From the IMG/VR virus record IMGVR_UViG_3300021962_008205, positions 1 to 44,467 of that record: a DNA stretch of 44,467 nt; one strand, given 5' to 3'. The position numbers and the translations under genes are program-made. The notes beneath the pieces are model-generated. The model saw nothing but the letters and a program-made list of their open reading frames with translations. It did no database searches and had not been told where the DNA came from. Below are positions 8,332 to 41,747 of the stretch, one piece after another; within the stretch, counting starts at the first letter, position 1; each line of letters begins with the position of its first letter. This DNA comes from a virus.

Positions 8332-8347
8332 ATTTTTGATAAATATA

Positions 8348-8431: not shown

Positions 8432-8477
8432 ATATTATCAGTAATTTACCGATACTTTTTTTTAAGTAAAGAAATCA

Positions 8478-16337: not shown

Positions 16338-18008
16338 TTATGATTCTTTTCTTAAAGAACCGTCGTAAAAATCAAATCGGTCATGTTCGGTTGGTGTTAA
16401 TAACAACAATCCTGGGTTTATGTTACCTTTTTTAGTTTCCTGATAAATAAAACTCATCCAAGTTTGTTCAAAGGGTCTTGCCCATTTTGTTTCTAAAAAC
16501 ATTTTTTTATTACCATATTTTGTAACCACTTGTGGCCAATTACAATAATAAACATCACCCAAAGCATACGGTATATTTTTATACGAAAGTATTTTTTTAA
16601 AATTAGTTCTTGGTGCATTTGGGTCTAATCCCATCACAGGTAAATTTGGTTTGTTTGGCCAAAATTCTTCTCTAACATGTTGAGGTACGTTATACCATGA
16701 CCATTGAGTTCCGTTATCACCATAAAACTCAGTGTAATTCATCTTTAAGAAATCAATGTCTTCTTTTTTAGTAATCTCTAATGAATTAATATACAAATTA
16801 TTTACAGTTCTATTGAATCCGTTTTTACAAACTTCACCTTTCTTTGGATAAAAGAACATATCATCCTCAAAGAAGAAATAAAAATCAAAATTGTTTTCGT
16901 CGGCATGTTCGGCAATAAATTGTCTACCCCCACAGATACCTAAATTATCTTTTTTAATATGTTCAAAACCATATTCTTTACAAAGTTCCAAGTATTTCTC
17001 GGTAGTTGACAAATCTGATGAGTTATCCAATAAAAACTTTTTAGGTTTATCCAAAAAGTCCGTATCATAATCAATCATGGATGTTATTAAAGTCTCAAAT
17101 TGTTTTGGACTATTAAATGTAATAACGTATAATGCGGTGTTAGTTAATTCTAACTTTAAATTATTGTTAACGGGTGATTTAGTTTTAACATCAACAGTAT
17201 CATTTTTTAAATCCTCACAAAACTTACTAATAAGACCGTTATAATCTATTTCAGCATATTCAATTAAATCAGGGTGTCTATAGAGTAAAATACTAAATAA
17301 AGATTCTTCGGTACCCATATAACCATCATTAATGGTTGTGTGTAGTAAATCGTAATACAAACCATTTATATCACCAATGGCATCTTTTCTACCACCAAAC
17401 AATCCACCTCTACAAACTAACTTAACATCATTTTTAGCATATTCGTTAATTTTAGGATAACTAAATCCATGAATTTCAGAATTTGTGTCATAAGGAAATG
17501 CAATAAAACCAAATTTGTTAAATAATTTAGGTAGTTTATCTTGTATTTTATCGTGAGTAAAATAACCAAGATGAACAGTGTTAGTTAGTCCAGCATCAAT
17601 CCAAAAAAGATGTGTTGAGTTAAATTTATCCATTATTTTGGCGTCATTTAACAAAAATACTTTAGACATAACCAATGGGTTATACATTTCTAAAGAACCT
17701 TGAGTGGACTCCTTTAACCATCCTGATTGATTATACCAATCAGGATTATTTCTGATTTCTTGTATTTTATCGTATGGAACAGTATTTTTAAACCATTCAG
17801 TATCTCTAGCGATGAACTGAGTATTATTACCATTTCTTCTACTCTCAACAAACTCTCGTATTTCTTCTTCACCAAAAATAATAAGATTAGTTTCAACCTT
17901 CAATAATTCTTCTAATTTTTGAAGGTAGTGGTCAAACGACCTTGACCACCCTTGATTTAACTGGTCTCTCTTAATGTTCCAAAGTCCTGTAACTAAAGTT
18001 ATTGACAT
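16338..18008 (-). CDS. Two-domain glycosyltransferase, HtrL/YibB-like plus GT-A
   Basis: The N-terminal half (about 1-280) resembles the HtrL/YibB/WlaTC family: it starts LVTGLWNIKRDQ and has a D-x-G block HLFWIDAGL near 130 and a GG-containing loop (CRGGLFGGRKDA). The C-terminal half (about 285-556) looks like a second GT-A transferase: ALYVITFNSPKQFETL, then NLGICGGRQFIAEHADEN and the acidic metal-binding motif FFFEDDM near 388. Two transferase domains in one chain could add two successive sugars. It is the last gene of the first glyco operon, 32 bp upstream of the Thr/Pro fibre gene and read in the same direction. Donor and acceptor cannot be told from sequence. Confidence 0.75.
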   Translation of the reverse strand: MSITLVTGLWNIKRDQLNQGWSRSFDHYLQKLEELLKVETNLIIFGEEEIREFVESRRNGNNTQFIARDTEWFKNTVPYDKIQEIRNNPDWYNQSGWLKESTQGSLEMYNPLVMSKVFLLNDAKIMDKFNSTHLFWIDAGLTNTVHLGYFTHDKIQDKLPKLFNKFGFIAFPYDTNSEIHGFSYPKINEYAKNDVKLVCRGGLFGGRKDAIGDINGLYYDLLHTTINDGYMGTEESLFSILLYRHPDLIEYAEIDYNGLISKFCEDLKNDTVDVKTKSPVNNNLKLELTNTALYVITFNSPKQFETLITSMIDYDTDFLDKPKKFLLDNSSDLSTTEKYLELCKEYGFEHIKKDNLGICGGRQFIAEHADENNFDFYFFFEDDMFFYPKKGEVCKNGFNRTVNNLYINSLEITKKEDIDFLKMNYTEFYGDNGTQWSWYNVPQHVREEFWPNKPNLPVMGLDPNAPRTNFKKILSYKNIPYALGDVYYCNWPQVVTKYGNKKMFLETKWARPFEQTWMSFIYQETKKGNINPGLLLLTPTEHDRFDFYDGSLRKES

Positions 18009-18010
18009 AA

Positions 18011-18640
18011 TTATTTTTTGATTTTACAAACCCATGCAATATTGTTGAAGGTTTCTTTATTATATGTGAAGAGATTGTTTTTATCACATGCTTCTTGAAT
18101 ATCATTATCAGATATTTCGTGCCAATTCCAAATTTTCATGTACACATTATTTTTAAAGGTTTCACTGTCTTCTGAGTAATCGTGAGCCATAATAAAATCA
18201 CCAATTTTCATGTAATTAGATAATAGTTTAAATTCGTGTATTTTACTACCACCATCACAAAGTATTAATGTAACCCCACCTTCATTAATAAAATCAATAA
18301 CCTCTTGTTTTACCTCGGTATAATTATCATTAAATACGTTTTCAATTCTAACATCAATACCATCTTTAATCATATCATCATACCATTCTTTGTAGTAAAT
18401 GTCATAAGATAAAATGTGACAAGGTATATTTAATCTTTTTGCTGCGTAATCTAAAAACGATGTAAACCCACCCAATGATGTACCAATTTCTAATATTCTT
18501 GATGGTTTAATTTCATTTAAAAAATGATAAAATACCTCAAACGCATTTGGGTTTTGTTGGGCACCCCAACCATTGTAAGTTGATATGCTGTCATTATGTT
18601 CTAAACTTGATTTTTTAAAAACTTTATCTTCGTATTCCAT
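18011..18640 (-). CDS. SAM-dependent methyltransferase, CmcI/Methyltransf_24-like
   Basis: The 209-aa class I methyltransferase has the glycine-rich SAM loop in ILEIGTSLGGFTSFL, an acidic second strand (SYDIYYKEW), and the conserved stretch TLILCDGGSKIHEF followed by GDFIMAHDYSED. The layout matches CmcI- or rhamnosyl-O-methyltransferase-like enzymes, which methylate sugar hydroxyls and often bind a metal through the D-x-G and H-D motifs. It is 2 bp downstream of the next glyco gene (tight operon). It probably methylates a sugar laid down by neighbouring transferases; the actual acceptor is unknown. Confidence 0.8.
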   Translation of the reverse strand: MEYEDKVFKKSSLEHNDSISTYNGWGAQQNPNAFEVFYHFLNEIKPSRILEIGTSLGGFTSFLDYAAKRLNIPCHILSYDIYYKEWYDDMIKDGIDVRIENVFNDNYTEVKQEVIDFINEGGVTLILCDGGSKIHEFKLLSNYMKIGDFIMAHDYSEDSETFKNNVYMKIWNWHEISDNDIQEACDKNNLFTYNKETFNNIAWVCKIKK

Positions 18641-18641
18641 A

Positions 18642-19502
18642 TTATAATTCTACTATTTTTTTCAATAAATTATACTCTTTAAAGTATTTTTCTTTGATTT
18701 TTTTTAACCCGTTAATTTTTTGTTGATAGATTTCATCAGCATTTTTTTCAATGTAATCTAATAGTTTATTTATTTGGTCAACATTATTAATATCTTCAAT
18801 CAAAATATATCCATCTTCAGGATAAATGTTTTTGATATTTTTACATCCAAAATAAATTGGTATTGTATCTGTTAAAATACAGTCATAAAATTTTTCACTT
18901 ACCCAATTATCTTGATATTCATTTTCTATTGATATATTAAATTTATAGTCAACTAAAGCGTCATGTCTTTTTGGACTACTATTACCACCATTAAACACAT
19001 CAACAAATTTTAAATTTTCAATCATTGAGGCAATTTTAGTTCTTTGTGGATATAAACATGTTCCACCATAATCCAATTCTGTTTTAGTTACAGATGATGA
19101 AATGTTTTTAGTTTTAATAAAATTTGTTGAGATTAGATTTTCGTAGTTCCAAAACGATAGTGGGTCCATCCACGGCCCTCTTCCACCATAAAAAGTATGT
19201 GCTAATGTTTCAATACAATTACCGATATATAAATCATTTTTAAATCCAAAAACAATTGTACCATCATTAAAATGTTTTTGGTGAGAACCATTCCAACTTG
19301 GTTCATGCGGAAATACGTATGATTTTTTACCTTCTTTGATATCTGAACAAATATGATTTAAAAATACTATTATATCATATGTGTCATCATAAACAAATTG
19401 AATATTGGTTAAATCAATTTCAGGTGTTTTAAATTGTTTTAAAAGTCGTTCAGTAATATTTTCAGAAGTGTCCCAATTACCTAATACTTTAATTTTCTTC
19501 AT
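18642..19502 (-). CDS. GT10 (alpha-1,3-fucosyltransferase-like) glycosyltransferase
   Basis: The C-terminal half shows the GT10 signature YKFNISIENEYQDNWVSEKF followed by DTIPIYFGC, equivalent to the fucosyltransferase motif that binds GDP-fucose. The N-terminal half carries YVFPHEPSW and a GGRGPW block typical of shorter bacterial members. Length (286 aa) is in the lower range for the family. I use the ATG at 19502; a TTG at 19508 is possible. The gene overlaps the FkbM gene by 14 bp, so the two are co-translated. Known members add fucose or related sugars to glycans; whether this one uses fucose is not certain, since no GDP-fucose synthesis gene is seen here. Confidence 0.8.
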   Translation of the reverse strand: MKKIKVLGNWDTSENITERLLKQFKTPEIDLTNIQFVYDDTYDIIVFLNHICSDIKEGKKSYVFPHEPSWNGSHQKHFNDGTIVFGFKNDLYIGNCIETLAHTFYGGRGPWMDPLSFWNYENLISTNFIKTKNISSSVTKTELDYGGTCLYPQRTKIASMIENLKFVDVFNGGNSSPKRHDALVDYKFNISIENEYQDNWVSEKFYDCILTDTIPIYFGCKNIKNIYPEDGYILIEDINNVDQINKLLDYIEKNADEIYQQKINGLKKIKEKYFKEYNLLKKIVEL

Positions 19503-20280
19503 AAACAATTTTTTCAGTTACACCATTTTCAAGATTACGATTCAAATTGTTACTCTCAGTCAATGGTTTTATATATTGATAATTTTTATCAATAAATTCA
19601 TTTAATTTATCTTTATGAACACAAAGATGGTCAGATGGATAATGATAATCTAAAAAATAAATGTAATAATCAAGATTTCTTAATTGTTCAAACAATTCAA
19701 CCACACCGTAATTAAATCTTCTAAGCTGGTGGTCTTCCATTTCAATGATAATTGTTGGTTTAGAAGTTTCAATTGTATTAACAGCACCTTCTAATACATA
19801 TTTTTCATACCCTTGAACATCAATTTTAATAAAATCAACTTTTGGTATTTGAAGTGAGTCTAATGTTTTTACTTCAATAGTTTCACCACCAACACCAACA
19901 CTTAAATCACCCATGTGAATACTTGGATGATTATAATCGATAGGTGACATTTCTTTATTTTCATTTTTATCACCAATACCACAATTATATAGGTGAATGT
20001 TAGAAATGTTATTTTCATCAATACTCATTTTTTGAACTTCATAGATATATTTTTGAGGTTCAAAACTATAAACAATACTACAAAATGGTGAACTTTTAAT
20101 TGAGTGCCATCCATAGTTACTACCAATATCAACAAATACTGAGTCCGATTTAAAATTTCGTTTTAATATTTGGGTGATGTGGGGTTCCCATGATTTACTA
20201 CTATGGATACTAACACCACTCCAATCATTAGGTAATGTGTTAATTGTGAAATTATCTGTTTCTACTTTTAAAGTTATCAT
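19489..20280 (-). CDS. FkbM-family methyltransferase
   Basis: The 263-aa product has the FkbM signature: SAM loop FVDIGSNYGWHSI, acidic strand SFEPQKYIYE, N-C-G-I-G-D block, and FIKIDVQGYEKYVLEGA near the C-terminus. Family members O-methylate sugars or polyketides. The start at 20280 is preferred over an upstream ATG at 20316 that would overlap the preceding gene by 32 bp. It is one of three FkbM-type genes in this window (others at 27185 and 35598); they are clearly different in sequence, so each probably has its own acceptor. Confidence in the family is high, in the substrate nil. Confidence 0.85.
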   Translation of the reverse strand: MITLKVETDNFTINTLPNDWSGVSIHSSKSWEPHITQILKRNFKSDSVFVDIGSNYGWHSIKSSPFCSIVYSFEPQKYIYEVQKMSIDENNISNIHLYNCGIGDKNENKEMSPIDYNHPSIHMGDLSVGVGGETIEVKTLDSLQIPKVDFIKIDVQGYEKYVLEGAVNTIETSKPTIIIEMEDHQLRRFNYGVVELFEQLRNLDYYIYFLDYHYPSDHLCVHKDKLNEFIDKNYQYIKPLTESNNLNRNLENGVTEKIVYEEN

Positions 20281-20284
20281 ATTA

Positions 20285-21028
20285 TTATTCTTTATTTCCA
20301 TTAAATATAAACCCAAAATCGTGTTCTAAATCACCATGATTTAAATCAAACATATTATTATACCCCGCATACCTTGCTGATATACCCATTTCAAAACCAT
20401 CACCCCAACTACCATTACCACCATTTTGGTTTTGCATTATTTCGTTTAATTCTTCCCATTTATTTGCAAACTTTTTAAGTTTTTCTTTATTATATTTGAA
20501 AATTAAAAAGTGTTCACTAGGTAAACAAGATTCCATTAAATCGTCATCGGTATCCCAAGTTAAAACATCATATGATTTAATTTTATGACTAAATAAACAA
20601 TTACCAGTATTATTATATTGTATGACTTCGTTTTTTAACACACAATTAAGTCTAGTCGCAATCCAGTCATATGTATTCATTAGAGAATGTATCCTATCTT
20701 CAGAAACTTGATTCCAAAATTGATTTTTGATATCACCATCAATATAAAAAACAACATCATATCCTTCAGGTAAATCTTTAAAAGCCAAATATTTTATATT
20801 GTAATTAAACTCAGCACCTCCCCTATATAAAAAAATTGAACTGTCGGGAACATTGTTTCTTATAATAAAACGGTTGTTTTTTACGTCATCAAAATATTCA
20901 ACATTATTAGTTGTTAATAAAATATCGTGATTGCTATTTGTTAGTAACTCGTTAATTAATTTTTTGGACGCATTTAAATAAAAATCATTTCCTGTTGATA
21001 TTGATAAAATTGTAAATAGGATTTTCAC
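20285..21028 (-). CDS. Putative GT-A glycosyltransferase with DGD motif
   Basis: The 247-aa product is organised like GT-A transferases: N-terminal strand ILFTILSISTGNDFY, an R-G-G-A block, then VVFYIDGDI, whose D-G-D is the metal- and nucleotide-sugar-binding DxD. The segment YNNTGNCLFSHKIKSYD and the C-terminal NGGNGSWGDGFEMGI probably shape the acceptor site. It overlaps the next gene by 4 bp (ATGA). I cannot place it in a numbered CAZy family by eye. Donor and acceptor are unknown. Confidence 0.7.
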   Translation of the reverse strand: MKILFTILSISTGNDFYLNASKKLINELLTNSNHDILLTTNNVEYFDDVKNNRFIIRNNVPDSSIFLYRGGAEFNYNIKYLAFKDLPEGYDVVFYIDGDIKNQFWNQVSEDRIHSLMNTYDWIATRLNCVLKNEVIQYNNTGNCLFSHKIKSYDVLTWDTDDDLMESCLPSEHFLIFKYNKEKLKKFANKWEELNEIMQNQNGGNGSWGDGFEMGISARYAGYNNMFDLNHGDLEHDFGFIFNGNKE

Positions 21029-21969
21029 GATAAAAGTATTCTATTAAATTTTTCCATTATTATCTCAGGACTAAATTGTTTATAAGGTGTATCATAGTCT
21101 GAGTATTTTATATAATTAGGTAAATTCTCAAAAATGTCTAAAACATCTTCGTAACCTTTATATATAATAGCACGTTCTTTTAATATTTCTAAATGATTAT
21201 TTTCACCTGAAAGTCCATACGTAATAATAGGTTTATTTGATAAAGCAAATTCAGAAACTGCCAATCCAAAAGTTTCACCACCACTTCTAGCATGTATCAT
21301 AGCATCACAAGCATCAACAAATGATGATTTTTCTTCCAAATCATAATTACCAGGAAAGAATTTAACTTGTGGGTGTTCAACAAATGGTGTGAAATTCATA
21401 AAAATAAAATATATGTCATTACGTTTTGCAACAACATCACGTATAGCATTTTTAACCGATTCTATATTAAACTCGGTTGACCCTCCGTACCCACCAAATA
21501 CTGTTACATTTTGTGGTATTCCATGTTTTTCTCTAAAATTATATTTAGATTTTGGTAATTTTTCACAAATATGTGGTAGTGAATGTGTTTCAGGGTCATA
21601 TCCCTGGTCTTTAGCTAACCAATCTGAAACATAAAAATATCTATGTCCATGTGGTTCATTAAATCTAAAAACAGAATGAACTAAAGTTGGAATTTTACTT
21701 AAACAATAACCATCATTATTACCCATTTTAATTAAGTATAAATAATCAAAATTATTATCAATTAAGTATTGTTCATAATTCCACCAATCCATAATAACAA
21801 CTTCAAACCTTTCTTTGAACTTGTCATATGCGGACATGTCTCTATTAGGGAATGTAAAAATAACACTTTTATTCCCTAAAATTTCCTCATTATATTTTGC
21901 ATATTGGTATAGAGCAACTTCAGTACCTCTAATACTAAGTTGATTTGTATGAAACGCAATTTTTTTCAT
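21025..21969 (-). CDS. GT-B glycosyltransferase, GT4-like
   Basis: The 314-aa product starts with IAFHTNQLSIRGTEVALYQY, whose R-G-T-E loop is the usual donor-side glycine-rich turn in GT4-like enzymes. It carries the C-terminal sugar-nucleotide motif ARSGGETFGLAVSEFALSNK, matching the E-x7-E pattern of retaining GT-B transferases. It overlaps the genes on both sides by 1 to 4 bp, so it belongs to the tightly packed operon 16338-23234. At 314 aa it is slightly short for GT4. The sugar is unknown. Confidence 0.8.
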   Translation of the reverse strand: MKKIAFHTNQLSIRGTEVALYQYAKYNEEILGNKSVIFTFPNRDMSAYDKFKERFEVVIMDWWNYEQYLIDNNFDYLYLIKMGNNDGYCLSKIPTLVHSVFRFNEPHGHRYFYVSDWLAKDQGYDPETHSLPHICEKLPKSKYNFREKHGIPQNVTVFGGYGGSTEFNIESVKNAIRDVVAKRNDIYFIFMNFTPFVEHPQVKFFPGNYDLEEKSSFVDACDAMIHARSGGETFGLAVSEFALSNKPIITYGLSGENNHLEILKERAIIYKGYEDVLDIFENLPNYIKYSDYDTPYKQFSPEIIMEKFNRILLS

Positions 21970-23234
21970 TATAAATTACCAGTTATCCTTTCACACCATC
22001 CTTTAGATTCTGAGTGAGGCCAAACAACCCAATATTTTGGTTTGTGAGCAGTTTGGAATTCTCTCCATACTTTACAGTATCCATCAGGGTCATTCATCAT
22101 ACGAGTAATTTCAGCCTTATCGGCATCTTTTCTATAAATTGTTTCATCTTGTTCGTTATGAAAGGCAACAACCCAAAAATCATAATCTTTTTCAGGTACT
22201 GATGAAAATCCAACATCAATACAATGTTTAAATATACTAGCAAAACTTTCCAACCATTTTTCTTCACTTTCAAATTCTTGTGGATTTGGTGGATAATGTT
22301 TATCTAAAGTATATTGTTGTACCGCCCTTTTTGCAAATATAAGACCAGCATATTTTTCATAATCTCTTAATGTTCTAACGGTTCCAAATCCATAAGGTCC
22401 GTCATGTCCTTCTTGAACTTCTCCGTCCATACCAAATAATTTTCGGTTTAATAAATGAGCTTGGTTATTTCTTCTAACCCATTCTTTATCATCATCCCAT
22501 TGTTTGGTTCTACCCTTACGAGTATATTCGTGCCAAATCAATACTTTGTGTGGATGGAACAAGTCGTAACCACAGGTATACGCTCTTGCTGAAATTGAAA
22601 TCTCTTCACCATGAAAATAATAGTGTGGGTTATGTTGGACTTCTTTTGAGAATTGTCCTAACGTGAAACAATAGTGTGCTGAGTAAAATCTTGCAGGTAT
22701 TGGTTCGGTCATTTCTCTCCAATTTGGAATTGTTTCAGGTAAGAAGAATACTGCCCCTTCAGGAATAAATCTATCAAAAGCCATTCTCCAAGGCTCTTGT
22801 ACTCTGCCTGCTGGGTCGTTATCAGGGTCAAATGATGACACATATCCTGTTAATAATGGTTTCTTGTGTCCTTTCTTTTGAAGTTGTTTAACCATATTAA
22901 TCATCTCTTCATCCCAATTTGGTGCAAACCTCATATGTGAATCAATTTGAAGTGTGTATGCCTCATCTTTATATAATTGTTGAACCAAGTGTCTTGCCCA
23001 ACAAACACCTTCGGCTTCTTGATATGGAATATTTAAAATTCTGAATCTATTATCATTTTCATATTCAGATAAATCATCAAATTTATCATCAGGGTTGAAT
23101 TGTCTTGCAACACCAATAACTAAGTTTTTAGGGTTTTTAGCATTCTCCAACATGTTCTTAATTGTTGGAACCAATTGTGGGTCACGATATGACGCAATCT
23201 GTACAAAAATTTTTGAGTTTTTTTTTGGTTTCAT
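21969..23234 (-). CDS. GT60-like GlcNAc transferase (Skp1-type)
   Basis: The 421-residue product resembles the GlcNAc-transferase family (PF11397, GT60). It starts IFVQIASYRDPQLVPTIKNM, has VIGVARQFNPDD and VCWARHLVQQLY, and carries the metal-site block LQIDSHMRFAPNWDEEMI that takes the place of a DxD motif. Further conserved blocks are GAVFFLPETIPNW and HYYFHGEEISISARAYTCGY. The best-known member, Dictyostelium Skp1 transferase, adds GlcNAc to hydroxyproline; bacterial and phage members are uncharacterised. I start at ATG 23234, since the earlier frame is hydrophobic, low-complexity sequence. It is the first gene of the first glyco operon, and its promoter should lie in 23235-23334. The link to the hydroxylase genes at 39939-41747 is discussed separately. 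Confidence 0.8.
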   Translation of the reverse strand: MKPKKNSKIFVQIASYRDPQLVPTIKNMLENAKNPKNLVIGVARQFNPDDKFDDLSEYENDNRFRILNIPYQEAEGVCWARHLVQQLYKDEAYTLQIDSHMRFAPNWDEEMINMVKQLQKKGHKKPLLTGYVSSFDPDNDPAGRVQEPWRMAFDRFIPEGAVFFLPETIPNWREMTEPIPARFYSAHYCFTLGQFSKEVQHNPHYYFHGEEISISARAYTCGYDLFHPHKVLIWHEYTRKGRTKQWDDDKEWVRRNNQAHLLNRKLFGMDGEVQEGHDGPYGFGTVRTLRDYEKYAGLIFAKRAVQQYTLDKHYPPNPQEFESEEKWLESFASIFKHCIDVGFSSVPEKDYDFWVVAFHNEQDETIYRKDADKAEITRMMNDPDGYCKVWREFQTAHKPKYWVVWPHSESKGWCERITGNL

Positions 23235-23334
23235 TATAATAATTCCGTTTATACATGAATATAAGATTTTGTATAATGAAGTGAATATAAAGAAATATTT
23301 GTCTTTTATATTTATATGGAAATATTTATAGTTA
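23235..23334. promoter_or_regulatory. Divergent intergenic region
   Basis: These 100 bp separate two genes transcribed away from each other. On the plus strand TTTG (23268-23271), a 22-bp spacer and AATATTTG (23294-23301) form a near-match to the Bacteroidota promoter, one base off in the -7 box and with a long spacer. No clear consensus is seen for the minus-strand GT60 gene, although one is required by position. Confidence 0.3.
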
Positions 23335-23502: not shown

Positions 23503-23504
23503 TC

Positions 23505-23774: not shown

Positions 23775-23788
23775 AATGATAAATAGTT

Positions 23789-24796: not shown

Positions 24797-24807
24797 TATA
24801 CGGTAAA

Positions 24808-25979: not shown

Positions 25980-25995
25980 TTAAGATAAATACCCA

Positions 25996-27182: not shown

Positions 27183-27184
27183 AA

Positions 27185-28015: not shown

Positions 28016-28018
28016 AAA

Positions 28019-33297: not shown

Positions 33298-35601
33298 ATG
33301 ATAAAACCAAAAATTTATGTTCATGGTTCTTACGTTGGGAACACAGGATATAACAATCACACAAGGGATTTTTTTAGAGAGATATCTAAACACGCTCAAG
33401 TTAAAGTACGAAATTTTACAGTTGGAGATTCTTGGTCAGGTAATAGTTTAACACCACATGATAATGAACCTTATCTGAATGATACCGATAAATCAATTTT
33501 ATATAAACAAAGATTATGGGTTGGTGATGGTGTAATGGAAGATTTTACAATCTATCCATCCGAAAAAAAAGATTTTTTTCCCGATTTTAACATAGTTTTA
33601 AATGAAACAAATCATCATTTATTTTATGAAAATTATTTGGGACCAAAAATTGCTTATAATGTTTGGGAATCAACATTACAACCTGAAACTTTTTTTAATA
33701 AATTAAAAGAGTTTGATGAATTGTGGGTACCCTCAAAATGGCAAAAAGAATGTACAGTTGCCCAAGGATATGACTCCGATAAAATTAAAGTTGTTCCTGA
33801 AGGTGTTGATGTTGACACTTTTTATCCTGAAAAAGTAGAATTACTTGATGAATACACTGATGGTAGATTTAAGTTTTTATTGATGGGTCGTTGGGATTAT
33901 CGCAAATCAACAAAAGAAATAATTGAGACCTTCTTAAAAACATTTTCTGCCGATGAACCAGTTGATTTAGTTGTATCAATTGATAATATGTGGGGCGAAC
34001 AAATGGATGGATACAAAACAACTGAGGAACGATTAAACGCTTATGGTTTTATTGACCCAAGAATTAAGATAATTCATTTTCCTTCTCGTGAAGATTATGT
34101 TAAATATTTAAAAACAGGTCATGTTTTTGTATCGTGTGCCAGGTCGGAAGGTTGGAATTTACCATTAATTGAAGCAATGGCTTGTGGTACCCCTTCAATA
34201 TACTCTAATTGTTGTGCTCAACTTGAATTTGCCGAAGGAAAAGGTTTTCCTGTAAATATTGTTGGTGAAAAAGCCGCAAATCTTAATGACTACGGTAGAT
34301 ACGTTATGAGTGAATTACCAGGAAATTATTATGAACCTGATTTTAATCACCTATCCAAAGTTATGAGATATGTTTATGAAAATTATGATTTATGTAAAGA
34401 AAAATCTTTTAAAGAATCAATTGACTTAAGAAATAATTTTAGTTGGGAACAAATTGGTAAAATTGGTTATGATACAATTACTGATTTTTATAATAAAATA
34501 AATACACCTGAATTTAATGAAAATAAAATACCAAATAAAATTAAAGTATCTTATTTTGAAGGACCTAAAGTTGAAATAGTTGGTGATGTTTATAAACAAT
34601 ATTCAGTTGAGTTTTTAGATGAATCTGACAATATCGTATATGGTACAAAAATTTCAAATAATATGTGGACATCATGTGGTAGAAAATACTACACAAAATG
34701 GAAAATTAGAGTTGATGGTGAAATTATTGATGAGTTTGATTTAACAAATAAACGAGTTTTAATTTCAATGGAATCTAAATCAATTGGTGATACAATTGCA
34801 TGGGCACCTTATGTTGTTGAATTTTCAAAAAAACATAATTGTAAAGTTATATTTAGTACTTTTCATAATTCTTGGTTTGAGGGTCATGAAAATTATAAGG
34901 ATATTGAATTTATTAAACCAGGTGAATTAACAAATTGTGATGTCGTATATAGGGTTGGTTGGATGCGTTCAGATAATAATAAATGGGATAAATTTGATTG
35001 TTATCCAAACTACCCTAATACCCAAGAATTACAAAAAACCGCATCCGATATTTTAGGATTAGAGTTTAAAGAATTAAATTTAGGCATAAATTTTACACCT
35101 AAAAATAAACCTTACATGGGTAATTATGTTATATTAGCACCTGAGTCAACAGCTGGTTGTAAAGAATGGACTTATGATAGTTGGGTGTTATTATCAAAAT
35201 TGTTAAAAGAAAATGGGTATACACCAATACTTCTAACAAGTAAAAAATATAACATCAAAAATGTTCCAAATGCATATGGTAGGAGTTTAGAAGAAGCAAT
35301 GAATATTTTATACCACGCAGAATTTATGATTGGATTAAGTTCAGGTCTATCTTGGATAAATTGGGCATTAGGAAAACACACGGTCATGATAAGTGGTTTT
35401 ACCCCAAAACATCATGAATTTACCACAAATATAACAAGAATACAAAATGAACATTCTTGTAATTCTTGTTGGTCTAACATTAATTTTAAATTTGACCCTG
35501 GAAATTGGAATTGGTGTCCAATTTGGGAGGGTACTGACAAACAACACATTTGTCAAAAATCAATTTCACCATTAACAGTATTTAATTTATTACCAATATG
35601 A
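33298..35601 (+). CDS. GT4 glycosyltransferase fused to BAHT/TibC-like protein O-heptosyltransferase
   Basis: The 767-aa product holds two complete transferases. Residues 1 to about 400 are a GT4 enzyme: GNTGYNNHTRDFFREI, VVPEGVDVDTFYPE, LLMGRWDYRKSTKEI and the E-x7-E block SEGWNLPLIEAMACGTPS. Residues about 413-767 match the bacterial autotransporter heptosyltransferase family (Aah, TibC): a beta-rich cap starting KVSYFEGPKVEIVGD, then SKSIGDTIAWAPYVVEF, APESTAGCKEWTYDSW, and FMIGLSSGLSWINWALGK. Four cysteines (C721-x2-C724-x15-C740-x11-C752) in the C-terminal part correspond to the iron-binding finger of TibC. TibC-type enzymes attach heptose from ADP-heptose to serines on surface proteins. 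It is on the opposite strand from its surroundings and is coupled to the next gene by a 4-bp overlap. Confidence 0.88.
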   Translation: MIKPKIYVHGSYVGNTGYNNHTRDFFREISKHAQVKVRNFTVGDSWSGNSLTPHDNEPYLNDTDKSILYKQRLWVGDGVMEDFTIYPSEKKDFFPDFNIVLNETNHHLFYENYLGPKIAYNVWESTLQPETFFNKLKEFDELWVPSKWQKECTVAQGYDSDKIKVVPEGVDVDTFYPEKVELLDEYTDGRFKFLLMGRWDYRKSTKEIIETFLKTFSADEPVDLVVSIDNMWGEQMDGYKTTEERLNAYGFIDPRIKIIHFPSREDYVKYLKTGHVFVSCARSEGWNLPLIEAMACGTPSIYSNCCAQLEFAEGKGFPVNIVGEKAANLNDYGRYVMSELPGNYYEPDFNHLSKVMRYVYENYDLCKEKSFKESIDLRNNFSWEQIGKIGYDTITDFYNKINTPEFNENKIPNKIKVSYFEGPKVEIVGDVYKQYSVEFLDESDNIVYGTKISNNMWTSCGRKYYTKWKIRVDGEIIDEFDLTNKRVLISMESKSIGDTIAWAPYVVEFSKKHNCKVIFSTFHNSWFEGHENYKDIEFIKPGELTNCDVVYRVGWMRSDNNKWDKFDCYPNYPNTQELQKTASDILGLEFKELNLGINFTPKNKPYMGNYVILAPESTAGCKEWTYDSWVLLSKLLKENGYTPILLTSKKYNIKNVPNAYGRSLEEAMNILYHAEFMIGLSSGLSWINWALGKHTVMISGFTPKHHEFTTNITRIQNEHSCNSCWSNINFKFDPGNWNWCPIWEGTDKQHICQKSISPLTVFNLLPI

Positions 35602-36323
35602 AAAATTTAGAAACCTTTGATTGGGGTTGGATGGACAAATCATCTGAAAGTTATCACATAATGCCCGATGGAACCCATAAAAGTATGGGCGAGTACCATA
35701 AAGATTCTATGATTCAAGAAATTTTTATAGATAAATGTTATGAAAGATTTTTTGAAGTAGAAGAAAATGACATTGTATTGGATGTTGGTGCCAGTGTTGG
35801 TCCTTTTACATATTCTATCTTACATAAAAAACCAAAACATGTATTTTGTTTTGAACCTAGTGAAAGTGAATTCAAAACACTTGTAAAAAATATTTTAGGT
35901 TATCCTGTAACACCTATAAATAAAGGAATTTCAAACGTAAATTCAATAGTGATGAACGACCATTTATTTGGTGGTGAAGAACAAATGGAATCAATTACTT
36001 TTCAAAAATTCATTGACTTATGTGGTATTGAAAAAATTGATTTTTTAAAAACTGATTGTGAGGGTGGTGAATTTGATATATTTACATTGGAAAACCTTGA
36101 TTGGATTAAAAATAATGTTAAAAAAATTACGGGTGAGTGGCACTTACAACTTCAGGGTCATGATTATGTTGCGAAATTTAGAGAATTTAGAGATGTTTAT
36201 TTAAAACAATTCACCAATTATGAAGTTTACTCTGTTGATAATATTGATATTAAATGGGACTTATGGAATGAACATTTTTTAGAATATTATAGACAAGTCA
36301 TTATTCACATAGATAATCGTTAA
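35598..36323 (+). CDS. FkbM-family methyltransferase
   Basis: The 241-aa class I methyltransferase has IVLDVGASVGPFTYSIL (SAM loop), VFCFEPSESEFKTLVKNI, and the FkbM block IDFLKTDCEGGEFDIFTLEN. The start codon overlaps the stop of the heptosyltransferase fusion (ATGA), so both are made together; methylation of the sugar attached by that enzyme is the natural guess. Its last 23 bp overlap the end of the convergent flavoprotein gene. Confidence 0.87.
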   Translation: MKNLETFDWGWMDKSSESYHIMPDGTHKSMGEYHKDSMIQEIFIDKCYERFFEVEENDIVLDVGASVGPFTYSILHKKPKHVFCFEPSESEFKTLVKNILGYPVTPINKGISNVNSIVMNDHLFGGEEQMESITFQKFIDLCGIEKIDFLKTDCEGGEFDIFTLENLDWIKNNVKKITGEWHLQLQGHDYVAKFREFRDVYLKQFTNYEVYSVDNIDIKWDLWNEHFLEYYRQVIIHIDNR

Positions 36324-37548
36324 ATAATTCTTTTGCTTGCATAATATTGTCCTCAATAGAACAATAAGTCCAAGAACCATACCTACCAATAGAAAATAAC
36401 CCATTAGGGTTATTTTTTTTGCCCCAATCATTATAAATTTCCTTTGATTCTTTGGTAATGTGAACATACGCTGGGTTCATAACAATCATTTGATGGTCAA
36501 CCAAAGTATGATTAGTTACAACCCTCACCCCTGTTAAATCCTCCAATACTTTTTCCAACAACATTACCTCATCAACTTCTTGGTTTTTTTCCATTCCAAT
36601 TTCAACATAAAGACTCATTCTATCAGTATTAAAGATGTTATTATAGAACCCAACTCTATAGAATATCTCGTCACCTGGATAATACACCCAATTTGATTCA
36701 ATGTCTGTCGGTAGGTCAAACCCCAAATTGAACACAACAACTTTATTTGATGATAGATGGTCAACCTTTTTACCTGTCAATTCCATAAAAGTATCAAACG
36801 GCATTGTATTCACCAATTTGTTAAATTTAATATATCCGTTATTTGTTTGGGCAATTTTGTTTTCAAGGTCAATACCAATAATTTTGGTATTTAACAAAAC
36901 ATTTTTCTCATTAACTCGTTTGTACAATGACTTAACAAATTCAATACTCCCACCTGTGGGATAAATGAAGGTATCGTTATAAGATTCGGTTTTGTTATTG
37001 TTTCTTAATTCAGACAATAAATCTTCAAACATTGTTGGTTTTGGGAAAAACCTTCCCATGGCATCGTAATCCAATTTGTTTAAATCACAAGCATAAAGTT
37101 TCTCATTATATGGTATAATGAATTTATCACATATTGAGTGTCCTAAGTTATTAACTACATAATCTGTAAATGTATTAACCTTCTCATTTCCACGATGATA
37201 CAAGTCATACAAACACTCAATAAACTCATTTGTGGGTAGTTGGTGTATGTTATTTTGAAATGGGAAATCAATATACCTATCTTTGTAAGATATGTGACTT
37301 TTTTTTCTTACCGTTTTGATATCACATTCAATGTTTTCCAACACATAATCTTTAATTTGTTTATTGTTGAAATGAAAAAAATGTCCTGAATAATCCCAAA
37401 CAAAACCGTTTCTAATTGTTGTCTTACAATACCCCCCAACTTCAGAATCCTTCTCAATAATTAGATAATCATCTGTGCCCAAAAAAGAGGCCAACGAAAG
37501 TCCTGTTATACCAGCTCCAATAATCAATATATCAATTTCTTGTTTCAT
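36301..37548 (-). CDS. FAD-dependent UDP-galactopyranose mutase-like protein
   Basis: The 415-aa flavoprotein begins with the dinucleotide-binding ILIIGAGITGLSLASFLG and EKDSEVGGYCKT, then NGFVWDYSGHFFHF, like the His-loop of UDP-galactopyranose mutases. The C-terminus has the second FAD motif GLFSIGRYGSWTYCSIEDNI. UGM converts UDP-galactopyranose to the furanose form, a donor for surface glycans. More distant relatives (protoporphyrinogen oxidase-like amine oxidases) share the same plan, so the reaction is not certain. It is in an operon with two GT2 transferases: a 1-bp overlap with the gene ending at 37548. Confidence 0.75.
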   Translation of the reverse strand: MKQEIDILIIGAGITGLSLASFLGTDDYLIIEKDSEVGGYCKTTIRNGFVWDYSGHFFHFNNKQIKDYVLENIECDIKTVRKKSHISYKDRYIDFPFQNNIHQLPTNEFIECLYDLYHRGNEKVNTFTDYVVNNLGHSICDKFIIPYNEKLYACDLNKLDYDAMGRFFPKPTMFEDLLSELRNNNKTESYNDTFIYPTGGSIEFVKSLYKRVNEKNVLLNTKIIGIDLENKIAQTNNGYIKFNKLVNTMPFDTFMELTGKKVDHLSSNKVVVFNLGFDLPTDIESNWVYYPGDEIFYRVGFYNNIFNTDRMSLYVEIGMEKNQEVDEVMLLEKVLEDLTGVRVVTNHTLVDHQMIVMNPAYVHITKESKEIYNDWGKKNNPNGLFSIGRYGSWTYCSIEDNIMQAKELFNDYLCE

Positions 37549-38693
37549 TATTTACCCATTCTATCACGGAAATGTTGTCTATTTTGGAGAAGTCTTTCTT
37601 TATGATGTGAAAAAGTTTCATCATCAATAATCTGTAATAGATATTGTAAACCTTCATTATATCTATTAGTCCAAAAACAAGCAACCGAAAGTTCATCATA
37701 TATGTATTTTCCATAACATTGTTCGTCAACAAATAAGATATACTTTTCTTTAACTTTATTAATGTCAATTGATAATGCTTTTGTTAAATACTTATACCCC
37801 AAATCATGTCTACCAATCTTATTACAATATGCTCCTAAATGATATAGTGGTTCCGCCCTATCAGGAAAAATTGAAATGGCTTTTTCCATTTCCTCAACAA
37901 TTCTCTCAATTTCATAATCAAGTGACATCATACATTTTGAAACTCTCATTTGTGCTTCAAACTTTTCTTCAATCCACCCATCATTAATTTTAAGATACAA
38001 CTTATTCCATTTTAAACCTTCCTCAATCATATCACAATCCATATAACTTTGGGCGGCGTAAAATATTGAACGCATATTTAACTCATCAGGGTCATCAATC
38101 AATGTATCCCAAAATTGTTTTTTTAATTTTTCAGCATCATAAAAATACTTTTTAGGGTCAAACGCTCTTGAACCAATTCCTTCTCCTGAAATATAAAAAC
38201 CATTACCACTAATATCTTTTGTTGATATGTGAGGTCTTTCCAAACATTTAATTGTTGTATGAGCAACTCCACAAAATTTCCAAGTATTTCTGTTATTAAA
38301 GATAATACGAGCCTTCCATTCAGACACACCTCGTTTAACAGATATAAAATATGAATCATATCCTTTATCTTCATTTGTAAACTTAAAATCACCAACTAAC
38401 AAATCATCAGCGTCTAAATGCATTACATAGTCCGCTTTGTCTTTGGCTCTTGACATCATTAAGGTTTTGTTCTTATCAAAACCAACCCACTCGTCAACAT
38501 GTAACTCACCTGGTATTCCTTTTTCTTCAAAAAAAGTTTTAACAATTTCACATGTTCTATCTGTTGAACCTGTGTCACACACTACCCAATAATCAATGTA
38601 TTTGTAAACGGACTCTAATGTATTTTGAATACAGTGTTCTTCATTTTTACACATTGTTGCAAAACAAAGTGTTGGTCTATTAGTTGTTGTCAT
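37548..38693 (-). CDS. GT2 glycosyltransferase with TPR-like tail
   Basis: The N-terminal about 200 residues are a GT2 catalytic domain: LCFATMCKNEEHCIQNTLES, YWVVCDTGSTDRTCEIVKTF, and the metal motif VMHLDADDLL. The C-terminal about 170 residues are helical repeats of TPR type (for example RAEPLYHLGAYCNKIGRHDL and LGYKYLTKAL). This layout is that of SunS-like and related transferases, in which the repeat domain binds a protein or peptide acceptor. A protein-targeting role is therefore plausible. The gene overlaps the upstream GT2 gene by 14 bp. Confidence 0.82.
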   Translation of the reverse strand: MTTTNRPTLCFATMCKNEEHCIQNTLESVYKYIDYWVVCDTGSTDRTCEIVKTFFEEKGIPGELHVDEWVGFDKNKTLMMSRAKDKADYVMHLDADDLLVGDFKFTNEDKGYDSYFISVKRGVSEWKARIIFNNRNTWKFCGVAHTTIKCLERPHISTKDISGNGFYISGEGIGSRAFDPKKYFYDAEKLKKQFWDTLIDDPDELNMRSIFYAAQSYMDCDMIEEGLKWNKLYLKINDGWIEEKFEAQMRVSKCMMSLDYEIERIVEEMEKAISIFPDRAEPLYHLGAYCNKIGRHDLGYKYLTKALSIDINKVKEKYILFVDEQCYGKYIYDELSVACFWTNRYNEGLQYLLQIIDDETFSHHKERLLQNRQHFRDRMGK

Positions 38694-39933
38694 ATATGTA
38701 ATTTAATATTTGTTCTTCTTCATGATATTTTCTAATAAAAATATGATTTTGGAATTTTTGTGAACATCCTTCGTCTTCAACCCAATTCCAATCTATTTTT
38801 CCCATATCAATTATTTTTTGATGTATTTCTTTATCATAATAGTCTCTAATCAATCTTGACCTACGGTTAATATCAATTGAATTATTATCTGTTGTTGTAT
38901 TTCTATTATTCCATTGGATGTATAAAACTTTCTTAATGTGAATCATTTTTGTGTTTAAAAATGTTCTAACTATGAGTTCAAAATCATCGGCAACAGGTGT
39001 GTTTTTGTTATGTCCACCAATTTTTAAATAAACATCTCTTCTCCACACCCTAACATGTGATGGCATACTAATATTAAATCTTATTGTTAATGGATTTATA
39101 TCAGGATAGTGGTGAGCCAATAATTGTTTATTATCTTCAGTTACCCAAGAATGTCCCGCATATCCAAAATCAAAAAAGTTATCTTCTCTACCATACCAAT
39201 TACCCGACCAATTATGGTCGTAAAATTTCGGACTACCATCTTCATATTGTTCGGTTACATCACTATACATAAATCCCGCATCGGGAAATTGTGACGATGC
39301 TTTATCTAAATATTCTAAACACTTTGTTAATAATTCATCATCATGGTCTAACTCAACTAACCATTCACCATCACACAATGATGCAACTCTATTCTTTGCT
39401 AAACCAACATTACCACCACTATTTGGTAATATTCTATGTACTTTAACCCTAAAGTCTTTTTTAGCAATATCAGAAAGTATTTCCCATGTTTCTTCCGTTG
39501 TTGAATCATCAAGTACTACCCATTCCCAATCATTAAATGTTTGGTTATTAATACTTTTATATGTTCTTAATATTTTATTTCCCGTATTATATGTTGGTGT
39601 AAAAATTGAAAACTTTGGTCGGGTATACTTACAATTTCTAAAAGTACTTTGAACTACAATATCATTTGCCAATACAATTTCATCAATAAGGTTTGGATAA
39701 TAAACATATTTTTCATTTAATACTTTATTATTTAACTCTAATTGAATCTCAAACGATACTATAATATCAGGGTTAATGTTTGAAATATCATTAAAAATAT
39801 TATCAGTAGAATCTAATGAATAAACAATCACTTCATCATAAAGATGTTCTTCATGATAAATCTCAGAACGTAAAGTAAACTCACCTTTTTTATACCAATT
39901 ATATAAGATGGCAATTGGTTTCTTAGTCTTCAT
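38680..39933 (-). CDS. GT2 glycosyltransferase with N-terminal extension
   Basis: Residues 1 to about 105 form an N-terminal domain with a Rossmann-like start (PIAILYNWYKKGEFTLRSEI). Residues about 108-350 are a GT2 enzyme: FSIFTPTYNTGNKILRTYKS, WVVLDDSTTEETWEIL, WLVELDHDDELLTKCLEYL with the D-H-D-D metal site, and a conserved R-V-W-R-R-D-V-Y block. The end carries an acidic helix. Donor and acceptor are unknown. It lies 5 bp downstream of the oxygenase gene ending at 39939 and overlaps the SunS-like GT2 gene. Confidence 0.82.
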   Translation of the reverse strand: MKTKKPIAILYNWYKKGEFTLRSEIYHEEHLYDEVIVYSLDSTDNIFNDISNINPDIIVSFEIQLELNNKVLNEKYVYYPNLIDEIVLANDIVVQSTFRNCKYTRPKFSIFTPTYNTGNKILRTYKSINNQTFNDWEWVVLDDSTTEETWEILSDIAKKDFRVKVHRILPNSGGNVGLAKNRVASLCDGEWLVELDHDDELLTKCLEYLDKASSQFPDAGFMYSDVTEQYEDGSPKFYDHNWSGNWYGREDNFFDFGYAGHSWVTEDNKQLLAHHYPDINPLTIRFNISMPSHVRVWRRDVYLKIGGHNKNTPVADDFELIVRTFLNTKMIHIKKVLYIQWNNRNTTTDNNSIDINRRSRLIRDYYDKEIHQKIIDMGKIDWNWVEDEGCSQKFQNHIFIRKYHEEEQILNYIYDNN

Positions 39934-39938
39934 ATAAA

Positions 39939-40523
39939 TTACCTTTCAGTATCAAAAAAGAATGTTTGAAATAATCTACCATCTTCTAAATTTCTACCAA
40001 AATAATCTAATGATGTGTGAAAATAATCCGCCCTATATAATACTAATCTGTTAAACTTATTTCCTAACATGTCAGTCATTTCCCACTTCGTCATGTCTTG
40101 AGAATCTAAATATAATCTATCTAACATTTCAAAATCATATGTTCCATCACTTTTTATTGGTGCGGTATGTATTCCTGTTTCTTTATGTTTAAATAAACCC
40201 GTACCTGAAGTAATTGGTGCGTTTGGTGTTAAATAACAAACCCCTGCCCATGTTGTTGTTTGGTCAGCATGCATCCAACTCCTGTCTCTTTGTGTCGCAT
40301 ATTGAAAGGAACCATTATATTCATCTGTCGACCATTTTGTTATTTTACCACCGGCAAAAAACACAATATCTTGTATTAAATTAACAACACTTTCATTGTA
40401 AAATGGTTTACTCCTAAATCCTGGATAATTACCAATTACATTAAATTCTTGTTGTAATGCAAATTCTCTTGTTTCGTGTGGGTCATTATAAAAATCATCC
40501 ACTATAATTGAAGATATAATCAT
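39939..40523 (-). CDS. Fe(II)/2-oxoglutarate oxygenase, DUF6445-like
   Basis: The 194-aa product begins IVDDFYNDPHETREFAL, the start of the DUF6445-type oxygenase group. Probable iron ligands are H85 and D87 in SWMHADQTTTWAGVCYL, and H169 in YRADYFHTSLDYF; R183 (GRLFQTFFF) would bind 2-oxoglutarate. A G-T-G-L-F-K-H segment fills the position of the usual G-G-T-x-F strand. This is a different branch from the two oxygenases upstream, but it is in the same tight operon (1 bp from its neighbour). Substrate is unknown; hydroxylation of a protein side chain or a sugar is plausible. Confidence 0.75.
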   Translation of the reverse strand: MIISSIIVDDFYNDPHETREFALQQEFNVIGNYPGFRSKPFYNESVVNLIQDIVFFAGGKITKWSTDEYNGSFQYATQRDRSWMHADQTTTWAGVCYLTPNAPITSGTGLFKHKETGIHTAPIKSDGTYDFEMLDRLYLDSQDMTKWEMTDMLGNKFNRLVLYRADYFHTSLDYFGRNLEDGRLFQTFFFDTER

Positions 40524-40524
40524 A

Positions 40525-41118
40525 TTATTTGTAATGGTCCCCTCCTATCCATAAAACCAAACTCTTTCTATTTCCACTTGTTAATGGGACCACCCTGTGT
40601 AATAAAAACGATGGGAATATTGCAACATTACCTTTTCCTCTTGGGACTGTCACATATTCACTACCTGTCATAATTTGTAAATCCCCACCCTCGTATTCAT
40701 TTGGTTCAGATAACTGTATAACCACAGATATTTTTCTATGTGAAATACTACCAGGACCAATATCTAAATGCCAATCATAATGACCACCATTTCCCTCATA
40801 TTCGGTATATTGAATGTTATCAATTATTGATTTTAATTCAAAGTTCCAAATAGCGTTGTTTGCTTCAATAACTTGGGACATTATTTTATCAATAACCCAT
40901 TCCCATTTAGAATCATAAGGTAACCATTTTATGTTACTTTTTCTAAATCTATCAGTATTGTTCTCATCAACAATAATAGCCTTTTGGAATTCATATTCTA
41001 ATGAACCACTAACAATTGTTTCAACTTCTTGAGTTGAAAATCCTTTTTCAAACCAATAATAGTTAGTTTGATTAATACCTTCTTTTGGCGGAAAAATTGG
41101 TTTTAAATCCATATTCAA
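40525..41118 (-). CDS. Prolyl-hydroxylase/PiuC-like Fe(II)/2-oxoglutarate oxygenase (copy 1)
   Basis: The 197-aa product has the double-stranded beta-helix motifs: H117-x-D119 in GGHYDWHLDIGPG, EYEGGDLQI, and the distal H174 with R184 in FPSFLLHRVVPLTSGNRKSL. This order (H-x-D, G-G-D-L, L-H-x-V-x-P-x-x-x-G-x-R) matches PKHD/PiuC-like and prolyl 4-hydroxylase-like enzymes. It is clearly a paralogue of the next gene, with motifs at the same residue numbers. Known relatives hydroxylate prolines or small molecules. Its position two genes from small fibre genes and the collagen-like fibre suggests a virion protein as substrate, which is inference. Confidence 0.85.
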   Translation of the reverse strand: MNMDLKPIFPPKEGINQTNYYWFEKGFSTQEVETIVSGSLEYEFQKAIIVDENNTDRFRKSNIKWLPYDSKWEWVIDKIMSQVIEANNAIWNFELKSIIDNIQYTEYEGNGGHYDWHLDIGPGSISHRKISVVIQLSEPNEYEGGDLQIMTGSEYVTVPRGKGNVAIFPSFLLHRVVPLTSGNRKSLVLWIGGDHYK

Positions 41119-41153
41119 AATATAAATAAGATATGTAAATAATAAAGTTTAGA

Positions 41154-41747
41154 TTATCTATATGGAGTTCCCCCTACCCAAAATACTAAACTTTTTCTAA
41201 CACCTTTTGTAACAGGTGTAACTCTATGTAATAAACAACTCGGGAACACAGTTACACCTCCTAAAATTCTTTCTGCGGTTTTTATTTCACCACCTGGCCA
41301 AATTTGTAAATCACCACCTTCATACTCGTTAGGGTCTGATAATAAAACAGAAACGGATACTTTTCTTTGATTCATATATCCACCACCTGCGTCTATATGC
41401 CAATCATAATGTCCATCATCAGTATATTCGGTATATTGTATTGGTTCTCTTGCCATAACTAAATCAAAAACCCAATGTTCATTATTAGTGACTTGTATTA
41501 ATTTCATTAATTTAACAAATATCCATTTGGTTTCTTCAGAAAAATAAATCCATTTCACATTACTTTTTCTATATTTTTCATTATGGTGACCACCATCACC
41601 ATCACTAACAATTCTCGCGTCTTCAAAATTTAAAGAATTAATTAACTCATTAATATTACTTCTTTCGTCTTCACTAAAAAACTCGTTTGTACAAGCATAT
41701 TTTGAAATATCAATTTTTGGATTGGTTGGAAATATTGGTAAACTCAT
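41154..41747 (-). CDS. Prolyl-hydroxylase/PiuC-like Fe(II)/2-oxoglutarate oxygenase (copy 2)
   Basis: Same length (197 aa) and same motif positions as the downstream copy: H117-x-D119 in DGHYDWHIDAGGG, EYEGGDLQIWPGGE, H174 and R184 in FPSCLLHRVTPVTKGVRKSL. The N-terminal 100 residues are more diverged between the copies, and this part usually shapes the substrate entrance. A tandem pair with conserved catalytic centres and different caps suggests two related substrates. It lies 38 bp downstream of a small fibre-associated gene and is read in the same direction as the collagen-like fibre. Confidence 0.85.
   Translation of the reverse strand: MSLPIFPTNPKIDISKYACTNEFFSEDERSNINELINSLNFEDARIVSDGDGGHHNEKYRKSNVKWIYFSEETKWIFVKLMKLIQVTNNEHWVFDLVMAREPIQYTEYTDDGHYDWHIDAGGGYMNQRKVSVSVLLSDPNEYEGGDLQIWPGGEIKTAERILGGVTVFPSCLLHRVTPVTKGVRKSLVFWVGGTPYR

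Follow-up and report, generated by a model that had tools for sequence, protein, structure and literature searches.

The window analysed here, 44,467 bases of AT-rich DNA from a large freshwater virus of bacteria (IMG/VR virus record IMGVR_UViG_3300021962_008205), has about 20 sugar-handling enzymes encoded beside the phage's own thread-like surface proteins. The region 545-9005 encodes phage DNA metabolism (SbcC-like, metallophosphoesterase, DnaG-like and RuvC-like genes) and is followed by fibre genes and then by this glycan island, whose genes lie between two fibre genes and stand in series that touch or overlap at their ends. Close relatives of the window are other IMG/VR contigs, with 93% identity in a structural protein and 94-96% in a glycosyltransferase of family GT60. 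An initial annotation of the sequence proposed that the island serves to sugar-coat the virion's own fibres. This proposal is supported by co-occurrence tests with controls, by bacterial contigs and by the virion glycoproteins of the GT60-carrying phage XacN1, and we consider it likely that the island is a two-arm, phage-encoded system that glycosylates the phage's own fibres. Gene identities were obtained directly from Pfam, NCBIfam, PHROGs and PDB searches of the window proteins. At one end of the island, genes bounded by YibB-family and GT60 enzymes adjoin a Thr/Pro-rich fibre gene:

13514-16306, minus strand: Thr/Pro-rich fibre/adhesin protein of 930 residues, with 195 Thr, 97 Pro and 52 TPT motifs (phrog_15511)
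16338-18008, minus strand: YibB-family tandem GT-A glycosyltransferase, the constant GT60 partner (N-terminal domain PF09612, E 6e-18, 65.8 bits against a cut-off of 24.1)
18011-18640, minus strand: RMNT_CmcI/FtsJ-type methyltransferase, variable cassette (Pfam)
18642-19508, minus strand: GT10 (fucosyltransferase family), variable cassette (PF00852, E 4e-14)
19489-20316, minus strand: FkbM methyltransferase, variable cassette (PF05050, E 2e-15)
20285-21028, minus strand: variable-cassette protein, possibly a glycosyltransferase from its position (no Pfam match)
21025-21969, minus strand: GT4-like glycosyltransferase, variable cassette (weak match to PF00534, E 0.0014)
21969-23369, minus strand: GT60, polypeptide GlcNAc-transferase family PF11397 (238.6 bits against a cut-off of 21, E 1.8e-70; phrog_24687, E 1e-168)

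The GT60 protein belongs to a protein-modifying (polypeptide-acceptor) family, and transfer of GlcNAc to Thr/Ser or hydroxyproline of proteins is predicted from its sequence. Its true start is probably the Met at 23234, giving 421 residues. The catalytic region is intact: D143, S144 and H145, within a QIDSHMRF stretch that we take to be the metal-binding motif, are invariant in 20 relatives together with many further residues. A sequence search of the PDB with GT60 returned no match. The YibB protein has an AlphaFold model (pLDDT 87) with two GT-A-like domains, for which the top PDB matches are LH3, COLGALT1 and LARGE1; as the whole-chain TM-scores are 0.2-0.3, the model shows GT-A-like domains only, and we rejected kinship with the collagen transferases. 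A literature search on the role of E. coli YibB gave nothing on function. The cassette genes between GT60 and YibB are interchangeable among loci, and across loci they match GT25, GT10, GT2, GT7, GT11, FkbM and other methyltransferases, sulfotransferases and carbamoyltransferases.

A scan of IMG/VR found 462 stretches with GT60 relatives, of which the best 80 loci formed 30 groups at 95% identity. The records are fragments, genes were called mechanically, and the composition thresholds were set by us and differ slightly between scripts. A YibB-family gene is present in 30/30 GT60 loci, always downstream on the same strand and 0.8-8.2 kb away. A Thr/Pro-rich open reading frame (ORF) is found in 24/30, compared with 0/32 representatives of the 2-oxoglutarate (2OG) oxygenases (1/80 2OG loci by a looser screen) and 1/9 loci of the heptosyltransferase described below; one further heptosyltransferase locus (L266) also has such an ORF. 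Compared class by class, the figures are 24/29 for GT60 loci, 0/16 for 2OG loci and 1/9 for heptosyltransferase loci. Within the same GT60 loci, 21/57 genes directly bordering the GT60-YibB unit are Thr/Pro-rich, versus 22/256 other genes (p = 5e-7). The reverse test agrees: PF11397 occurs in 14 of 50 records selected solely for a TPTPTPTPT codon pattern; among the 19 records with a length of at least 60 kb, the count is 11. Relatives of the 930-residue protein flank GT60 and YibB elsewhere, some with lectin domains or virion-structural PHROGs. More broadly, LamG, legume-type lectin and CBM domains occur in the Thr/Pro neighbours of GT60-YibB, as do PHROGs termed virion structural or tail fiber; phrog_15511 is matched by 20/25 of these neighbours, perhaps in part because of repeat composition. 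The 930-residue protein is therefore the presumed acceptor of the GT60 arm. Next to it, at 11495-13288, lies an SprB-repeat protein, an arrangement also seen in gliding Bacteroidota adhesins and a hint at a Bacteroidota host.

Among annotated phages, a GT60 of the window type is carried only by XacN1, CM1 and RAS14, all three with a YibB partner. In XacN1 the GT60 is 47% identical to that of the window and the YibB-type partner 40%. There are 85 TPTPT-coding matches in XacN1 and 36 in RAS14; with the pattern reversed the numbers fall to 4 and 3, and in eight other large phage genomes the TPTPT count is 0-2. Proteins with such runs are numerous in XacN1; among them are ORF325, encoded next to a baseplate-wedge gene, and ORF369, 370 and 372, close to tail-sheath genes. 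The XacN1 paper reports at least two glycoproteins in the virion (PMC5852040). The pairing of GT60 with repeat proteins also exists in bacteria, independently of phage fibre clusters. In Jiulongibacter sediminis (a 1.3 Mb contig from an isolate) and on Saprospiraceae contigs, GT60 and YibB adjoin a gene whose product begins with a leader-like segment and continues with TPTPTPTLTPS-type repeats, and on a Gemmatimonadota contig a TPTPTP protein ends 16 bases before GT60. Some contigs labelled as bacterial metagenome-assembled genomes could be phage contigs; the Jiulongibacter contig is the only clearly chromosomal one. J. sediminis (L326:8956-11236) carries a pair of PF11397 genes close to a TPTPTP-repeat protein. 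Among 395 sampled genomes of Bacteroidota there was one strong GT60 carrier, the seed itself; as the family is rare in this phylum, we do not claim a common, host-derived system. The initial annotation had suggested following the gene set and Thr/Pro fibres across related phages; with the controls above, this check is positive and extends to bacterial contigs.

The other end of the island adjoins a collagen-like fibre:

33298-35601, plus strand: fusion of GT4 (N-terminal half) and TibC/Aah-type protein O-heptosyltransferase (BAHT; C-terminal half, TIGR04414)
35598-36323, plus strand: FkbM methyltransferase (PF05050, E 4e-7)
36301-37548, minus strand: UGM-like flavoprotein (PDB UGM 4dsg, E 1.5e-26)
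37548-38693, minus strand: GT2 (PF00535, E 8e-8) with a weak TPR tail (E 0.014)
38680-39933, minus strand: GT2 glycosyltransferase (PF00535, E 8e-21)
39939-40523, minus strand: DUF6445 protein (PF20043, E 1e-12)
40525-41118, minus strand: prolyl-hydroxylase-like 2OG-Fe(II) oxygenase, paralogue 2 (PF13640, E 7e-15)
41154-41747, minus strand: prolyl-hydroxylase-like 2OG-Fe(II) oxygenase, paralogue 1 (PF13640, E 2e-14)
41786-42418, minus strand: small Pro-rich protein adjoining the fibre, kept at 46% in relatives
42425-42736, minus strand: 103-residue protein adjoining the fibre, kept at 76% in relatives
42738-44465, minus strand, running off the window: collagen-like fibre (PF01391, E 5e-61) with S74 chaperone domain (PF13884, E 1e-18)

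The TIGR04414 domain scores 217 bits, above the NCBI curated equivalog cut-off of 200, and matches TibC in the PDB (E 1e-33). Alignment in TibC numbering (residue numbers and roles from PMC4358343) shows that catalytic D110 as well as T226, K230 and W305 are kept in the window protein and in complete phage copies, as are the equivalents of the iron-finger residues C339, C342, C358 and C370. At the position of P300 the residue is Ser; Aah, an enzyme that accepts both heptose isomers, also has Ser there. The initial annotation's inclusion of at least two enzymes from protein-modifying families thus holds, with GT60 and BAHT recognised by the PF11397 and TIGR04414 models. A collagen-like ORF (at least 20 G-X-Y triplets) is present in 9/11 heptosyltransferase loci, these being the loci long enough to judge, versus 3/21 GT60 loci (p = 3e-4); it is found in 3/79 Thr/Pro-pattern loci and in 10/16 2OG loci. 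By these co-occurrence tests the island is more than a chance assembly, and each enzyme class tracks its own repeat-protein class, a pairing observed directly in the loci. The collagen-like fibre, with Thr at Y in 47 of its 136 G-X-Y triplets, is the presumed acceptor of the heptosyltransferase arm. The collagen-like triplets in heptosyltransferase relatives are mostly GTS and GSS. In five loci (L004, L010, L017, L191 and L266), nearly all triplets of the collagen-like proteins near the heptosyltransferase contain Ser or Thr.

The two oxygenases, like the DUF6445 protein and a SET-domain protein (see below), had been overlooked by the initial annotation. In the product of 41154-41747, the iron triad H117, D119 and H174 and the 2OG-binding R184 are invariant in 33 sequences. 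Its nearest sequence relative is PiuC, and its AlphaFold model (pLDDT 89) matches PHD2, the HIF prolyl hydroxylase with bound peptide (E 2.9e-10, TM 0.75); the P. putida P4H and a Dictyostelium prolyl hydroxylase (6t8m) are other close folds, and PiuC has a TM of about 0.6. The modelled fold is thus nearest to peptide prolyl hydroxylases, and the enzyme may act on peptidyl proline. A route in which GT60 is linked to hydroxyproline was considered and demoted to a minor possibility, since GT60 loci are without nearby 2OG genes and the collagen Y position is Thr or Gln, not Pro. A general association of 2OG genes with fibres holds only in part, some 2OG relatives lying within DNA-replication clusters (L041, L056). 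The sole repeated 2OG-GT60 pairing seen is in L055, L058, L071 and L078, where fibre genes (those of L055, L058 and L071 being collagen-like) precede a 2OG gene, with a divergent PF11397 gene two genes further on; the order (2OG, two unknown genes, divergent PF11397) is identical in L055:6284-9361, L058:9938-13015, L071:9833-12907 and L078:9950-12963. A literature search combining phage collagen, prolyl hydroxylase and glycosyltransferase found no reports.

Because two enzyme classes track two repeat classes and a hydropathy scan found no membrane enzymes, direct glycosylation of the fibres in the cytoplasm is the best explanation for the island. From this we infer acceptor residues, sugar identity, the order of steps, location on the virion and biological purpose as follows. 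Fibre proteins would be glycosylated in the host cytoplasm by phage enzymes. In the first arm, GT60 would add the first sugar, probably N-acetylglucosamine (GlcNAc), to Thr of the Thr/Pro-repeat stretches, and the YibB-type tandem GT-A enzyme would, with the swappable cassette (GT4, FkbM, CmcI-type methyltransferases, GT10), extend and cap the glycan. In the second arm, the GT4-heptosyltransferase fusion would add a heptose-type sugar to collagen-like fibres at Thr, or at Ser in relatives; an HldD-like epimerase would adjust the donor, and FkbM, acetyl- and other transferases would act on the products. The probable role of the two oxygenases is hydroxylation of residues in the fibres, which may supply further sites for attachment. 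The purpose may be mimicry of the host surface or tuning of adhesion, as the initial annotation suggested. With more reserve, we lean slightly towards a wider reading in which GT60 and YibB form a general cytoplasmic module of phages and bacteria for Thr/Pro-repeat surface proteins, with an exchangeable inner cassette giving each phage its own glycan type, and in which a second phage module (TibC-like enzyme and prolyl-hydroxylase-like oxygenases) serves collagen-like fibres.

Between the two arms lie two lectin-like genes and a series of donor-supply and decorating genes:

23789-24814, minus strand: LamG-domain (lectin-like) protein 1 (PF13385, E 6e-20)
24966-25979, minus strand: LamG-domain (lectin-like) protein 2 (PF13385, E 2e-16)
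25996-26385, minus strand: SET-domain protein, possible protein lysine methyltransferase (PF00856, E 7e-16)
26382-27182, minus strand: HldD-like ADP-heptose epimerase for donor supply, 266 residues (PDB 1eq2, E 5e-37; TIGR02197, 203.8 bits)
27185-28015, minus strand: FkbM-like methyltransferase (PF05050, E 1e-4)
28019-29005, minus strand: GT-A-like by eye only (no family match in Pfam or PHROGs)
29002-30495, minus strand: two-part protein, C-terminal part methyltransferase-like (weak match to PF13847, E 0.02)
30485-31039, minus strand: hexapeptide O-acetyltransferase (PF00132; Vat/CatB family matches below cut-off)
31036-32040, minus strand: GT-A-like by eye only (no family match in Pfam or PHROGs)
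32040-32618, minus strand: NeuD/PglD-like sugar acetyltransferase (TIGR03570, 148 bits against a cut-off of 161)
32615-33259, minus strand: short DegT-like aminotransferase, 214 residues (PF01041, E 3e-11)

Profile and PDB searches bear out the HldD-like, UGM-like, DegT/PglD, methyltransferase and O-acetyltransferase genes of the initial annotation, as well as its flanking Thr/Pro-rich protein, two LamG proteins and collagen-like fibre with S74 domain. Its two operons are three transcription blocks, of which 33298-36323 is on the plus strand. Of the approximately ten transferases it counted, GT60, the heptosyltransferase, YibB, GT10, GT4 and two GT2 enzymes have family matches, and four presumed ones (20285-21028, 28019-29005, the N-terminal part of 29002-30495, and 31036-32040) have no match naming them so. 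The peptide-binding-like TPR tail is present on one GT2 as a weak match only; the same protein hits the SunS peptide S-glycosyltransferase model with E 4e-7, far under the cut-off. The SET-domain protein, lying among lectin and glycan genes, has a 43% relative in GT60 locus L170. The DegT-like protein covers a small part of its profile yet is kept at 91% (L022) and 71% (L132) identity, possibly a minimal DegT. Outside the island, 9254-11458 encodes a presumed structural protein of 734 residues with relatives in IMG/VR and none in 50,697 annotated phage records, and 7606-8331, flanked by the RuvC-like gene and a small ORF, resembles genes for GIY-YIG/NUMOD3 homing endonucleases.

Several alternatives need to be weighed against fibre glycosylation. 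Remodelling of the host surface (lipopolysaccharide or capsule), excluding other phages, is the published reading of comparable jumbo-phage and cyanophage glycosyltransferase clusters (PMC7824862); moreover, GT10, GT25, FkbM, HldD and UGM-like enzymes also occur in surface-polysaccharide loci, and cassette content differs among relatives as it does in O-antigen loci. However, a hydropathy scan of the island proteins found no transmembrane-like segment, and no flippase, polymerase, ligase or polyprenyl-linked initiating transferase is among their Pfam and NCBIfam matches. We regard host remodelling as improbable, given also that two signature enzymes come from protein-acceptor families, that glycoproteins are described on XacN1 virions (PMC5852040), and that the enzyme-to-repeat pairing would be left unexplained. 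Modification of phage DNA bases is far less credible still. DNA-modifying glycosyltransferases are common in phages, and the C-terminal part of YibB weakly resembles TAGT (PF20691, E 0.005) and the T4 beta-glucosyl-HMC-alpha-glucosyltransferase (phrog_842, E 7e-4), but the GT60 family uses polypeptide acceptors, no gene for hydroxymethyl-pyrimidine synthesis was found in the window, and on bacterial contigs the GT60-YibB pair stands beside a secreted repeat protein.

It is also conceivable, though rather unlikely in our view, that only GT60-YibB and the heptosyltransferase act on fibres, with the DegT, PglD, UGM-like, O-acetyltransferase and unassigned genes forming an unrelated host-surface or metabolite cassette lying between them. 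The genes of 26382-33259 are indeed the least conserved among close relatives: the L102 series retains HldD and the L022 series PglD and DegT, the others being gone. Against this, the genes form touching or overlapping runs between two fibre genes, are of types that building a glycan would call for (sugar-donor and decorating), and have only fibres encoded nearby as acceptors.

Some findings weigh against glycosylation of the fibres as we propose it. As the loci are related by descent, the counts and p-values overstate independence; the loci were moreover chosen for their similarity to proteins of the window. The XacN1 glycoproteins are not tied to a gene in the available text of that paper (PMC5852040). 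The HldD-like epimerase, a shorter protein, scores 203.8 bits, under the curated TIGR02197 cut-off of 274.6, with HldD as its top PDB match. The adenine-contacting Arg286 of TibC is replaced by Ala in the window protein, and the position is A/S/T/I/V/R among phages; we therefore term the enzyme TibC-like, and its donor may not be ADP-heptose despite the nearby HldD-like gene. In the collagen-like fibre, Pro is at X in 56 of the 136 triplets and at Y in about one, so that classical collagen 4-hydroxylation does not fit. Finally, GT60 and 2OG genes are rarely found together.

Worked examples of phage virion glycosylation are few, and no general rule ties enzyme to substrate. An enzyme class of its own for each repeat type would make glycosylated fibres predictable from sequence alone, and would offer a function for the uncharacterised YibB family. 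If correct, fibre glycosylation would bear on how aquatic phages bind to or hide on their hosts, and would provide compact cytoplasmic enzymes for glycosylating repeat proteins and collagen-like polymers.

Phage virion glycosylation itself is already known. In mycobacteriophages, phage glycosyltransferases modify the C-termini of the phage's own capsid and tail-tube subunits (Freeman et al. 2023, Cell Host Microbe, as summarised in PMC12619734). The window resembles that case in having phage-encoded glycosyltransferases with the phage's own virion proteins as presumed targets; it differs in that these targets are Thr/Pro-repeat and collagen-like fibres and the enzymes are of GT60 and TibC protein-acceptor types. 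XacN1 shares the GT60, the YibB-type partner and many TPTPT-run proteins, and virion glycoproteins are reported for it; its glycosyltransferase pair adjoins baseplate genes rather than a strongly Thr/Pro-rich gene, and the available text of its paper lists ORF334 while leaving out the YibB partner, and names no substrates (PMC5852040). As in TibC and Aah (PMC4358343), the catalytic Asp, donor-phosphate residues and iron finger are kept in the window's heptosyltransferase. Unlike them, this enzyme is encoded by a phage, has GT4 as its fusion partner (according to annotation, FkbM in some relatives) and neighbours a collagen-like protein instead of an autotransporter; compared with TibC, Arg286 is replaced and Pro300 is Ser, the latter as in Aah. 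The Skp1 system (PhyA, Gnt1/GT60 and two-domain PgtA; PMC6939170) likewise combines a prolyl-hydroxylase-like enzyme, GT60 and a two-domain glycosyltransferase, but the phage GT60 and 2OG genes are mostly apart and the phage GT60 follows Thr-rich repeats, making Thr a likelier acceptor than hydroxyproline. With Mimivirus L230 (PMC4691112) the window shares virus-encoded hydroxylation and glycosylation of the virus's own collagen-like fibres, predicted in the case of the phage; L230, from a eukaryotic virus, is a lysyl hydroxylase fused to its glucosyltransferase, whereas the phage has separate prolyl-hydroxylase-like genes and an O-heptosyltransferase. What is new here is the enzyme set and its presumed substrates.

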